From Pseudomonadota bacterium (lineage in GTDB: Bacteria; Pseudomonadota; Gammaproteobacteria; Burkholderiales; Methylophilaceae): 64,000 bases of DNA. Where the stretch lies: contig JAKQTN010000033.1 of assembly GCA_029563075.1 (NCBI GenBank), positions 62,001 through 126,000 on the forward strand, in the 5' to 3' direction. Positions 28,897-49,257 of this stretch are shown one piece after another. Each line of letters starts with the position of its first letter. Position 1 is the stretch's first letter. Below the pieces are notes generated by a model. The model did not search any database. It was not told where the DNA came from and was given only the letters and a program-made list of their open reading frames with translations. The position numbers and the translations under genes were made by a program.

Positions 28897-29027
28897 GGCT
28901 GAAATTATCCCATGAATATGGACGGTGATTTTACGAACCTAAATAAAGTATTGCGTTATGCTGCATATCTTGTTAGCCTTACGTTGCTGTAAAGTTTCAA
29001 TTCTGTCATTACTTTTAGGGAGGATGT

Positions 29028-29318
29028 ATGGATTTAGGGATGATTATTCAGTTAATAAGCGGCGCAGTTGGCGGTAACATCGCTGGCAGCCTGATGAAAA
29101 ACGCAAGCATGGGCACTGTGCTAAACTCAGTGATTGGTATTCTTGGCGGCGGTTTGGGCGGTCAATTACTCGGCATGCTGGGCATAGGTGGCGCTGCAGC
29201 AACGGGTGGCGGCATGGATATTGCTACTATTATCGGCCAAGTGGCTGGCGGTGGGGTGGGTGGTGGCGTATTGTTAGCCATCGTCGGCATGATTAAAAGC
29301 GCAATGGCGAAGCAATAG
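29028..29318 (+). CDS. Small glycine-zipper-rich membrane protein
   Basis: GGAV/GGG repeats with hydrophobic segments; good SD (GGGAGGA). Confidence 0.7.
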   Translation: MDLGMIIQLISGAVGGNIAGSLMKNASMGTVLNSVIGILGGGLGGQLLGMLGIGGAAATGGGMDIATIIGQVAGGGVGGGVLLAIVGMIKSAMAKQ

Positions 29319-38957: not shown

Positions 38958-40616
<1,659 letters not shown>

Positions 40617-40711: not shown

Positions 40712-40740
40712 AAAAAGCCTCGCAATTGCGGGGCTTTTTT
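40712..40740 (+). terminator. groESL terminator
   Basis: AAAAAGCCTCGCAATTGCGGGGCTTTTTT. Confidence 0.9.
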
Positions 40741-40816: not shown

Positions 40817-40851
40817 AAAAAAAGCCCCGATTAAGGGGATTAAATCGGGGC
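40817..40851 (-). terminator. Rho-independent terminator of the putative sRNA
   Basis: Minus strand GCCCCGATT-TAATCCCCTT-AATCGGGGC-TTTTTTT; no minus-strand CDS ends here. Confidence 0.8.
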
Positions 40852-40962
40852 AAAAATGCCTCATCGTCTAAGGCTTCCGCTCAGGGAGGAAAGAAGCGGA
40901 AAGATAACAAAGTCTGAACTTTGCTACCATACGAACTCAGACTAATGCTGTTTGCCTTAGTT
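40817..40962 (-). ncRNA. Putative structured intergenic sRNA (minus strand)
   Basis: Closing stem CTAAGGC (40954-40960) / GCCTTAG (40868-40874); hairpin AGTCTGA/TCAGACT (40937-40943/40911-40917); hairpin TTCCGCT/AGCGGAA (40895-40901/40875-40881) with loop TCTTTCCTCCCTG; terminator at 40817-40851. Confidence 0.6.
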
Positions 40963-41035
40963 CCAGCTATTTCACTCTTTTTTCTGCTACTTCAAGTTGC
41001 ATAACTTTATCTATCAGCCATGCGATAATATCGCC

Positions 41036-43213
41036 ATGGAAACCCAATCTTCAATCCTCGCCGGCCTCAATGATAAACAACTCGAAGCTGTTACTTTGCC
41101 GCACCAGTCCGCACTGATATTAGCGGGCGCAGGCAGCGGTAAAACACGCGTACTCACCACACGTATCGCCTGGCTGATTCAAACCGGGCAGATTTCACCC
41201 ATGGGGCTGATGGCGGTCACATTTACCAATAAAGCCGCGAAAGAAATGCTCACACGCCTGACCAGCATGCTGCCCATCAATACGCGCGGCATGTGGGTAG
41301 GTACATTCCACGGGCTTTGCAACCGGTTATTGCGGGCACATCATCGCGAGGCCGGTTTGCCTTCCACATTCCAGATTCTGGATACGGCCGACCAATTATC
41401 TGCCATTAAGCGCATAATGAAAGCCATGAATGTGGATGATGAAAAGTTTGTGCCTAAGCAAGTGCAAGGCTACATCAACGGCTGCAAAGAAGAAGGTTTG
41501 CGCGCGCATGCCGTAGATGCCTATGACGCGCATTCGCAAAAGTTACGCGAAATTTACGAAGAATATGACAAGCAGTGCAACCGAGAAGGCGTGGCTGATT
41601 TTGCCGAACTGCTGCTGCGCTGCTACGAGCTGCTGGAGCGCGATGCACACATTCGTGGCCACTACCAAAACCGCTTCAAGTATATATTGGTGGACGAGTT
41701 TCAGGACACCAACCGCCTTCAGTATTTATGGCTGAAATTATTGGCTGGCGTGGATAACTGCATGTTTGCCGTAGGTGACGATGACCAGTCTATTTATGGC
41801 TTTCGCGGCGCGCGCGTGGGCAATATGCGCGATTTTGAGGCCGATTTTAATGTGCAGAATATCGTAAAGCTGGAAGAAAATTACCGCTCGCACAGCAATA
41901 TACTAGATGCCGCCAATGCAATCATTTCGCACAATAAAAACCGCTTGGGCAAAAATCTATGGACCTCGGCAGGCGCGGGCGAGCCAGTGCGGGTGTATGA
42001 AGCTTATAACGACACGGATGAAGCGCAGTTTATCGTCGATGAAATCAAAATGCTGCATGCAGAAGGTGCTGCGCTAGGCAGCATCGCCCTGCTCTACCGC
42101 AGCAACGCGCAATCGCGCATTTTGGAGCACGCGCTGTTTTCAGCTAGCTTGCCTTATAGAGTTTACGGTGGCCTGCGCTTTTTTGAGCGCGCCGAAATTA
42201 AACACGCTCTGGCTTACATGCGCTTAATCGCCAATGCCAATGATGATACCGCTTTACTAAGAGTCATCAACTTTCCTGCGCGCGGCATCGGCGCACGCAG
42301 CCTGGAGCAGTTACAGGAGGGCGCTCGCCAGAATGACTGCAGCCTGTGGCAGGCGGCGATTAACAAAGTAGGTAACGGCAAGGCTGGTGGCAAAGGCATT
42401 GAGGGCTTTGTCGCGCTGATACGCGACATGATCGACCAGGCTTATGGTATCACGCTGGCAGAAGTCGCCGAACTTGCAACCACTTTATCCGGCTTAAAAG
42501 CGCACTATCAGAATGAGAAGGAAGGTGAAGACCGTATCGCCAACCTGGAAGAATTGGTGACCGCCGCGGTAGCGTTTACCAACCAGGATTTTGGCAACCA
42601 CAACAATGTGGATGGCGATGCTGACTTTAGCTCAGGGCAAGACTTAATGACGCAATTCTTAACTCACGCCAGCCTGGAGGCTGGCGAACATCAGGCCGAT
42701 GTTGGCCGGGAAGCGCTGCAGCTCATGACGGTGCATGCCTCCAAAGGCCTGGAATTCAAAACCGTGTTTATCAGCGGTTTGGAAGAAGGCTTATTCCCGC
42801 ACGAACAAGCTGCTTATGAGCATGGCGGGCTGGAAGAGGAACGCCGTCTGATGTATGTAGCTGTCACCCGCGCCAGACAACGGCTTTACCTAAGCCATGC
42901 ACAAAGCCGCATGCTGCATGGGCAGGTGCGTTACGGCATCCCTTCACGTTTTCTGGATGAAATTCCCGAGGAACTGTTAAAACGCCTCAACACCAAGCCT
43001 ACGGCTAAAGTCTATGCCAGCCCAAGCATCCAGACATCCTCCACGAATGCCTACCCGTACAAAATCGGGCAAAGCGTTCGTCACGCCAAATTTGGCGAGG
43101 GCGTTGTGGTGAGTTATGAGGGCAATGCGGATAATCTGGTGATTAAAATCAACTTTGGCCGCGAAGGCCTTAAAACACTGGCAATGGAGTATGCCAGGTT
43201 AGAGAAGATTTAA
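41036..43213 (+). CDS. uvrD: UvrD/PcrA/Rep-type DNA helicase II
   Basis: LNDKQLEAVTLPHQSALILAGAGSGKTRVLTTRIAWLI, DEFQDTN, GDDDQSIYGFRGA, MTVHASKGLEFKTVFISGLEEGLFPHE. Confidence 0.92.
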   Translation: METQSSILAGLNDKQLEAVTLPHQSALILAGAGSGKTRVLTTRIAWLIQTGQISPMGLMAVTFTNKAAKEMLTRLTSMLPINTRGMWVGTFHGLCNRLLRAHHREAGLPSTFQILDTADQLSAIKRIMKAMNVDDEKFVPKQVQGYINGCKEEGLRAHAVDAYDAHSQKLREIYEEYDKQCNREGVADFAELLLRCYELLERDAHIRGHYQNRFKYILVDEFQDTNRLQYLWLKLLAGVDNCMFAVGDDDQSIYGFRGARVGNMRDFEADFNVQNIVKLEENYRSHSNILDAANAIISHNKNRLGKNLWTSAGAGEPVRVYEAYNDTDEAQFIVDEIKMLHAEGAALGSIALLYRSNAQSRILEHALFSASLPYRVYGGLRFFERAEIKHALAYMRLIANANDDTALLRVINFPARGIGARSLEQLQEGARQNDCSLWQAAINKVGNGKAGGKGIEGFVALIRDMIDQAYGITLAEVAELATTLSGLKAHYQNEKEGEDRIANLEELVTAAVAFTNQDFGNHNNVDGDADFSSGQDLMTQFLTHASLEAGEHQADVGREALQLMTVHASKGLEFKTVFISGLEEGLFPHEQAAYEHGGLEEERRLMYVAVTRARQRLYLSHAQSRMLHGQVRYGIPSRFLDEIPEELLKRLNTKPTAKVYASPSIQTSSTNAYPYKIGQSVRHAKFGEGVVVSYEGNADNLVIKINFGREGLKTLAMEYARLEKI

Positions 43214-46476: not shown

Positions 46477-49257
46477 ATGAAAACATTGTTATTAGTGGAC
46501 GGCTCATCCTACCTGTATCGCGCCTTTCACGCCATGCCTGATTTGAGAAACCACCAGAACGAACCTACCGGCGCGATTTACGGCGTACTTAACATGCTGC
46601 GGCGTTTGCACAAAGATTATCCAGCGGATTATAGCGCATGTATTTTTGATGCCAAAGGCAAAACCTTTAGAGACGATATCTATCCGGAATACAAGGCTAA
46701 CCGCGCCAGCATGCCGGATGAACTGCGGGCTCAGATTGCCCCCCTCCACGAAGCCATTAAAGCCATGGGCTGGCCGATGATTGTGGAAGAAGGCGTAGAA
46801 GCCGATGACGTCATCGGCGCGCTGGCCAAACAGGCCGAGCGTGAAGGCATGCGCGTCATCATCTCCACCGGTGACAAAGACATTTCGCAATTGGTCAACG
46901 AGCACGTTACCGTCGTCAACACCATGCGCGATGCGTTCAGGAAAACCGATGAAATGCTGGATGCCGCAGGCGTAGAAAATAAATTCGGCATACCGCCCAG
47001 CCTGATGATTGACTATCTGATGCTGATCGGCGACACCTCGGACAACGTGCCGGGGGTGGAAAAAGTCGGCCCGAAAACCGCAGTAAAATGGCTAAAACAG
47101 TACGGCTCGCTCGAAAACATCATTACGCATGCCGATGAAATCAGCGGAGTCGTGGGTGAGAATCTGCGCAAAGCGCTGCCTTGGCTGGAAGTCTCGCGCG
47201 AACTCATTACCATCCGCTGTGATGTCGGCATTCAGGAAAAACTCAGCGACCTTGCCCCGCAGCCGCAAGACAAAGCCAAACTGGCTGAGATCTACGAACG
47301 TCTGGATTTCAAAACCTGGCGGCGCGAATTAGATCACAATCAAACGAATAACAACGCAAAACCCACTGCCCTGCAGACCAATATCCATGCGCCTTCCGGG
47401 GCATCTGTTTCTGACGATATATCCACAGAAAAACAATATGTTGCCAACAATTCACGCAACTACGGAACCATTCTGACCAATGACCAATTAGACCATTGGC
47501 TGGCAAAACTGCAGTCTGCGCCACTGGTGTGCTTCGACACCGAAACTACCTCGCTCGATCCGATGACCGCAAAAATAGTCGGCATATCGTTCAGCGTTGA
47601 ACCCGGCAGCGCTGCGTATTTGCCGCTCAAGCACGATTATTTTGATGCGCCGGAACAGCTTAATTTTGCTGAAACACTGGCTAAAATAAAACCAATTTTA
47701 GAAAGCCCAACCATCAAAAAAGTGGGGCAGAACCTGAAATACGATCAACATGTTTTAGCCAATCACGGCATTGAGTTAAATGGCATCGCGCACGACACCT
47801 TGCTGCAATCCTATGTATTTGAATCGCACAAAACGCACGGCATGGATGACTTGAGCGAGCGGCATTTGGGTATTAAAACCATCAAGTTTGAAGAAGTGGC
47901 CGGCAAGGGTGCAAAACAGGTTAGCTTTAACCAGGTGACGGTAGAGACGGCTGCCGAATACGCCGCAGAAGATGCAGATATAACCTTGCAGCTGCATGAG
48001 GCCATGTATCCGCAAATCGCCTCAGATACCAAGCTGGATTATATTTACAGCCAGATTGAAATGCCTGTTTCCAACATTTTATTTACCATCGAGCGCAACG
48101 GGGTGCTGATTGATTCAGTCATGCTGAATGCGCAGAGCAATGAAATCGGCATGAAACTGGTCAACCTGGAGAACCAGGCCTACGCGCTGGCAGGCCAGCC
48201 GTTTAATTTAAGCTCGCCCAAGCAGTTGCAGGAAATCCTGTTTGATAAACTGGGGATTAAACCCACTAAAAAAACACCTTCCGGCGCACCGAGTACAGAT
48301 GAAGACGTGCTACTGGAACTTGCGCTGGATCACCCGCTGCCAAAAGTTTTGTTAGAGTATCGCGGCCTGGCCAAACTCAAATCCACCTACTCTGACAAAC
48401 TGCCCAAGATGATTAACCCGCACACAGGTCGCGTGCATACCAGCTACAATCAGGCGGTGGCGATTACCGGACGGCTTGCCAGCTCTGACCCGAATTTGCA
48501 GAACATCCCCGTCAGAACTCAGGAAGGGCGCCGCATTCGTGAAGCCTTCATCGCGCCCAAAGGCAGCGTCATTGTCTCTGCCGATTATTCACAAATCGAG
48601 CTGCGTATCATGGCGCATCTCTCCCAAGACGCAGGCATGCTGCAAGCCTTTGCCAACAATGAAGACATCCACCGTGCCACCGCGGCCGAAGTATTTGGCG
48701 TTGAAAAAGAAGCCGTGGATAGCGAACAGCGCCGTTACGCAAAAGTCATCAACTTTGGCCTGATTTACGGCATGAGTGCATTTGGCCTAGCGCAAAACCT
48801 GAATATCGAACGCAGCGCTGCAGCAAGCTATATAGAACGCTACTTTGCGCGCTATCCGGGCGTGAGGGCATACATGGACAACACGCGCGCAATCGCCAAA
48901 CAACAAGGCTATGTGGAAACCTACTTCGGACGCAGACTTTGGGTGCCCACCATTAACAGCCCCAACGCCATGCAGCGGGCAGGCGCAGAACGCGCTGCTA
49001 TCAACGCGCCTATGCAAGGCACCGCGGCAGACCTGATCAAACTCGCCATGATAGCCGTAGATAAATGGCTAAAGGATGAGAAACTGCACAGCAAACTTAT
49101 CATGCAGGTACACGATGAACTCGTGCTGGAAGTACCTGATAAAGAATTGGAATTAGTAAAAAACAAATTGCCAGAATTGATGCAAAATGTCGCTAAACTT
49201 GATGTACCTTTGCTGGCGGAAGTTGGTATAGGCAGTAATTGGGAAAGCGCGCACTAA
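46477..49257 (+). CDS. polA: DNA polymerase I
   Basis: MKTLLLVDGSSYLYRAFHAMPDLRN (5' exo), CFDTETTSLDPM (3' exo), VSADYSQIELRIMAHLSQD, QVHDELVLEV. Confidence 0.98.
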   Translation: MKTLLLVDGSSYLYRAFHAMPDLRNHQNEPTGAIYGVLNMLRRLHKDYPADYSACIFDAKGKTFRDDIYPEYKANRASMPDELRAQIAPLHEAIKAMGWPMIVEEGVEADDVIGALAKQAEREGMRVIISTGDKDISQLVNEHVTVVNTMRDAFRKTDEMLDAAGVENKFGIPPSLMIDYLMLIGDTSDNVPGVEKVGPKTAVKWLKQYGSLENIITHADEISGVVGENLRKALPWLEVSRELITIRCDVGIQEKLSDLAPQPQDKAKLAEIYERLDFKTWRRELDHNQTNNNAKPTALQTNIHAPSGASVSDDISTEKQYVANNSRNYGTILTNDQLDHWLAKLQSAPLVCFDTETTSLDPMTAKIVGISFSVEPGSAAYLPLKHDYFDAPEQLNFAETLAKIKPILESPTIKKVGQNLKYDQHVLANHGIELNGIAHDTLLQSYVFESHKTHGMDDLSERHLGIKTIKFEEVAGKGAKQVSFNQVTVETAAEYAAEDADITLQLHEAMYPQIASDTKLDYIYSQIEMPVSNILFTIERNGVLIDSVMLNAQSNEIGMKLVNLENQAYALAGQPFNLSSPKQLQEILFDKLGIKPTKKTPSGAPSTDEDVLLELALDHPLPKVLLEYRGLAKLKSTYSDKLPKMINPHTGRVHTSYNQAVAITGRLASSDPNLQNIPVRTQEGRRIREAFIAPKGSVIVSADYSQIELRIMAHLSQDAGMLQAFANNEDIHRATAAEVFGVEKEAVDSEQRRYAKVINFGLIYGMSAFGLAQNLNIERSAAASYIERYFARYPGVRAYMDNTRAIAKQQGYVETYFGRRLWVPTINSPNAMQRAGAERAAINAPMQGTAADLIKLAMIAVDKWLKDEKLHSKLIMQVHDELVLEVPDKELELVKNKLPELMQNVAKLDVPLLAEVGIGSNWESAH

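Follow-up and report, generated by a model that had tools for sequence, protein, structure and literature searches.

An RF02837 small RNA with an anti-Shine-Dalgarno loop and a probable RpoE promoter between groEL and uvrD of a Methylophilaceae genome

The minus strand between groEL and uvrD of a Methylophilaceae genome, within the 64,000-nucleotide stretch of DNA analysed here (the window), encodes, as judged from sequence comparison, a genuine small RNA (sRNA) of an already known family, RF02837 (anti-hemB), and not of a new one. Our best reading, with a probability of about 0.78, is a Methylophilaceae member of RF02837 that is induced by RpoE, acts in trans and blocks ribosome-binding sites through C-rich loops. 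New here are a conserved sigma-E-type promoter, a 5' hairpin and a link to the polA-engB locus. The window contains the following features:

38976..40616, plus strand: groEL, convergent neighbour of the sRNA (Pfam PF00118), in 48 of 88 Methylophilaceae loci
41036..43213, plus strand: uvrD, divergent neighbour, ATG at 41036 (Pfam PF00580/PF13361), in 87 of 88 Methylophilaceae loci
46477-49257: polA (Pfam), beyond uvrD
40937..40964, minus strand: sigma-E (RpoE/ECF)-type promoter motif, -35 GGAACT at 40964-40959, 17-nt spacer, -10 TCTGA at 40941-40937
40817..40930, minus strand: predicted sRNA transcript, ~114 nt, start placed from the -10 element; RF02837 spans 40902-40817
40903..40928, minus strand: 5' hairpin GGUAGCAAAG/CUUUGUUAUC, outside the Rfam model, double compensatory changes in 7 of 10 pairs (29 sequences)
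40875..40901, minus strand: anti-Shine-Dalgarno hairpin, loop UCUUUCCUCCCUG, CCUCCC at 40889-40884
40858..40874, minus strand: mini-hairpin GCCUUA-GACGA-UGAGGC, in the Rfam model structure
40817..40851, minus strand: intrinsic terminator with U tract and a second C-rich loop CCCCUU, CCCC at 40838-40835

The Rfam scan (cmscan) matches RF02837 at 40902-40817 (-) over the full model length (1-81) with 56.3 bits, above the gathering cut-off of 49.5 bits, and this is the single match across the whole source genome. An earlier, sequence-only reading had proposed a novel minus-strand sRNA at this place. All letters quoted in it are present in the sequence; the sRNA and its strand stand, and the novelty falls, since the matched family also contains ncS04 of B. 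cenocepacia, detected by dRNA-seq and Northern (PMC5688073). This RNA is 105 nt long, its 3' end has been mapped and a Northern blot supports it (PMC5688073, Table 1); it displayed no regulation across seven conditions, envelope stress not being one of these. RF02278 (Betaproteobacteria toxic sRNA) reaches only 19.7 bits at the sRNA locus, below its cut-off of 50, and Spot 42 (RF00021) has no match there (E up to 1). Homologues of RF02837 over the cut-off are found in 88 of 150 Methylophilaceae genomes and 190 of 300 Burkholderiales genomes; a class-wide search of 274 genomes found matches in 124 (14 over the cut-off), and 40 of the better ones (L214-L253) were examined as relatives outside Burkholderiales. 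Homologue counts for loop and promoter refer to 113 distinct Burkholderiales loci (84 Methylophilaceae, 29 other Burkholderiales).

Genera g14 and g16, streamlined Methylophilaceae with ~1.3 Mb genomes, possess no sRNA over the cut-off and retain rpoE in most cases. L244 (G610), L246 (G701), L247 (G587), L219 (G546) and L169 (G700) possess 2-4 RF02837-like copies ~150-350 nt apart, which suggests local duplication of the RNA. A c-di-GMP-I riboswitch (77.9 bits) is located at L215:2037-2121 (-), close to an RF02837 relative. The source genome may possess a second anti-Shine-Dalgarno sRNA at G000:C61:49586-49635 (-) (L062), a sub-threshold RF02278 match with 31 bits vs 50.

According to folding and covariation, the RNA is composed of a covarying 5' hairpin, the anti-Shine-Dalgarno hairpin, the mini-hairpin and the terminator, in this order. 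The 153-nt minus strand folds with -53.1 kcal/mol (z -4.5), and none of 200 shuffles folds as well; the z-score of a 92-nt core vs shuffles is also -4.5. The minimum-energy structure contains hairpin B of the sequence-only reading, which had recognised its anti-Shine-Dalgarno loop, and likewise the Rho-independent terminator claimed for this strand. In the 5' part GGTAGCAAAG pairs with CTTTGTTATC, and GCCTTA pairs locally with TGAGGC. Across 29 aligned relatives 96.5% of cells are paired in the four-helix structure, with 10 pairs doubly changed (reached by 0 of 500 shuffles) and 49 double-change cells vs a shuffled mean of 17. The covariation score is 0.204, again reached by 0 of 500 shuffles, with slid versions at <=0.073. 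The 5' hairpin (double changes in 7 of 10 pairs) and the terminator, of whose nine stem pairs three are doubly changed, contribute most of the covariation in this set. The anti-Shine-Dalgarno stem is invariant among the 29 sequences, and its arms covary at more distant loci (CCGC/GCGG, CCCGC/GCGGG, CCACGC/GCGTGG, CCACAC/GTGTGG, CCTGC/GCAGG); the mini-hairpin occurs in the covarying forms GCTTC/GAAGC, GCCATAT/ATATGGC and GCCCGAC/GTCGGGC. The loop CCUCCCUGA is constant in 107 of the 113 distinct homologues, the terminator loop reads CCCCTT or CCCTTT in 104, and the 5' hairpin is also present in most relatives outside Burkholderiales.

The three 3' hairpins, i.e. the UCCUCCCUGA-loop hairpin, mini-hairpin and terminator, all with covariation, and the CCUCCCUGA loop are shared with RF02837 and ncS04. 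In contrast, the Rfam model comprises neither the 5' hairpin nor the promoter, and the window locus is groEL/uvrD instead of engB/hemB. A micro-ORF that would begin at the predicted start (MVAKFRLCYLSASFLPERKP) was discarded, as its frame and length differ among relatives.

Upstream of the predicted start the minus strand carries GGAACT-N17-TCTGA, which matches the consensus for RpoE/AlgU-type ECF sigma factors and also conforms to the sigma-E regulon motif GGAACT(T)-N16-18-TCnnA. There are four exact GGAACT-N16-18-TCTGA matches genome-wide, and the three besides this one apparently lie within coding sequence (by inspection). Of the 113 distinct loci, 103 have GAACT at a distance of 53-105 nt upstream of the loop, vs 4 in a same-sized control zone. 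By group, it occupies the expected position in 81/84 Methylophilaceae loci, 22/29 loci of other Burkholderiales and 36/40 loci outside the order (control zones: 3, 1 and 5, respectively), and together with TCnnA at the right spacing in 74/84, 20/29 and 29/40 (control zones: 0, 0 and 1). The ten loci without GAACT include the Burkholderia-like L032, L033 and L050, perhaps with a changed promoter. L033 displays GGAAACTTTT...TATCATA in place of GAACT.

The genome possesses one clear rpoE (TIGR02939, 306 bits) and two ECF-like genes with weaker matches. Strict TCnnA was found upstream of only 3 of 30 family rpoE genes; with the -10 relaxed to TC, most of them carry (T/G)GAACT-N~18-TC upstream, so that it is chiefly the -35 box and the spacing that carry the rpoE comparison. 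GAACT-N~18-TC upstream of rpoE fits the expected autoregulation. From these motifs, the sRNA is probably switched on by the envelope-stress sigma factor RpoE. The sequence-only reading had pointed to a weak upstream sigma-70 promoter, TTGAAG; this was rejected as bearing no relation to the conserved element, which is instead GGAACT-N17-TCTGA at 40964-40937.

Downstream of uvrD, the window contains an APH-family kinase (probably homoserine kinase), DUF2782 and polA. The window's sRNA adjoins neither polA nor engB, and hemB is not beside it; its neighbours are groEL, for which the previously noted terminator of its own at ~40712-40740 is plausible by eye, and uvrD. The other Burkholderiales possess a divergent hemB and a convergent engB, with hemB adjoining 26 of 30 loci; this position is the source of the name anti-hemB and not part of the RF02837 model. 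Outside Burkholderiales, 26 of the 40 better matches adjoin polA and 27 adjoin engB (Pfam identities), the usual order being polA> sRNA> <engB. Because engB flanks both, this arrangement and that of the other Burkholderiales can be linked. Beyond Methylophilaceae the sRNA does not have uvrD beside it.

A constitutive, sigma-70-driven anti-Shine-Dalgarno sRNA of RF02837, with GGAACT...TCTGA as another conserved feature or the site of another ECF sigma factor, would agree with ncS04 being unregulated in seven conditions, with the lack of GAACT in some Burkholderia-like loci and with the two further, weaker ECF-like genes. We consider this unlikely, given that both boxes and their spacing are kept across Methylophilaceae and as far as the relatives outside Burkholderiales, no good sigma-70 promoter was found at the right place, rpoE has a similar motif upstream, and the AlgU-dependent ErsA occupies the equivalent locus. 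A plus-strand element, either a uvrD leader or a shared terminator, is suggested by the position upstream of uvrD; it is highly improbable, however, since the T tract follows the stem on the minus strand only, the minus strand carries both the RF02837 match and the promoter, and uvrD is replaced by other neighbours outside Methylophilaceae.

Just as improbable is the architecture drawn in the sequence-only reading, a 146-nt RNA with a closing stem (CTAAGGC/GCCTTAG), a three-way junction and a switching hairpin A (AGTCTGA/TCAGACT). The complementary letters exist, but both extra stems are absent from the minimum-energy structure and are paired in 66% of cells with no excess of covariation, the promoter would fall inside the RNA, and the conserved mini-hairpin, which takes the place of the closing stem, would be broken. 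The compensatory changes anticipated among homologues occur for the four-helix structure and not for the closing stem or hairpin A. The 5' arms of these two helices, GGAACTAA and AGTCTGA, coincide with letters of GGAACT-N17-TCTGA, and the alternative fold from which a switch had been proposed is part of the GGTAGCAAAG/CTTTGTTATC 5' hairpin.

Among known sRNAs, ErsA of Pseudomonas aeruginosa is AlgU-dependent, lies in the polA-engB gap and is an Hfq-assisted repressor of oprD and algC. The window's sRNA resembles it in sigma-E-class control, here at motif level only, and presumably in negative control of mRNAs; the polA-engB gap is shared by the relatives outside Burkholderiales, not by the window's sRNA. 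ErsA, compared by locus and description, differs in its 132 nt and its U-rich unstructured domain II. Xanthomonas sX13 (PMC3771888) is located downstream of polA and acts with C-rich loops on G-rich translation starts, Shine-Dalgarno pairing in trans being its demonstrated mode of action. Common to both RNAs are C-rich apical loops and, as would be expected for the window's sRNA, repression via G-rich motifs near start codons; the polA-linked locus is shared by the relatives outside Burkholderiales and is not adjoining in the window. sX13 has three C-rich loops vs two here, the mini-hairpin loop GACGA not being C-rich, is reported as Hfq-independent, and in the passages covered is given no sigma-E control. 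RF02278 double-hairpin RNAs (Bordetella S17 kin) share a CU-rich anti-RBS stretch, short length and a terminator. For related CU-rich sRNAs from Burkholderia and Bordetella, action at the ribosome-binding site has been either predicted or demonstrated. Spot 42 shares the polA-yihA(engB) locus in E. coli, but is CRP-controlled, not sigma-E-controlled.

Compared by locus and description, RF02837 likely shares descent with ErsA and sX13. The odds slightly favour RF02837 being the beta-proteobacterial branch of a sigma-E-dependent polA-engB sRNA of the Beta-/Gammaproteobacteria ancestor, with ErsA, sX13 and possibly Spot 42 as other branches, and C-rich loops blocking ribosome-binding sites under envelope stress as the ancestral function. 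If true, sRNA repression under envelope stress (RybB, MicA, ErsA) would be old and general, reaching most Betaproteobacteria. Our literature search found no regulator or function for RF02837, no paper naming this family and none naming both sX13 and ErsA. The conserved sigma-E-type promoter provides RF02837 with a testable inducer, and the polA-engB synteny bears on the kinship of polA-linked sRNAs: the sX13 paper asks whether such sRNAs elsewhere are related and act alike (PMC3771888).

As an RpoE-induced member of RF02837, the sRNA would be transcribed by RpoE-holoenzyme, activated by envelope stress, over ~114 nt (-) from GGAACT-N17-TCTGA, and transcription would stop at the intrinsic terminator. 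The RNA, capped by its 5' hairpin, would pair in trans with G-rich ribosome-binding sites through the CCUCCCUGA loop, perhaps together with the terminator CCCC loop; as a result a set of mRNAs would be translated less, probably with the participation of Hfq, whose gene is present in the genome. sX13 and the CU-rich RNAs of Burkholderia serve as the models from which we infer that translation starts are blocked in trans. The loop sequence complements ribosome-binding sites of the AGGGAGG type. Exact complements of its 9 nt included no convincing start site among the matches. AGGGAGG-N3-9-ATG occurs at 9 sites vs 2 in the reversed control, and three of the nine resemble real starts (aqpZ, a signal-peptide protein and a small membrane protein), making these tentative candidate targets; conservation of the aqpZ site within the genus is not strict. 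A candidate target in the window is located at 29017-29030 (+), where AGGGAGG immediately precedes the start of a glycine-rich protein of 96 aa, apparently a membrane protein.
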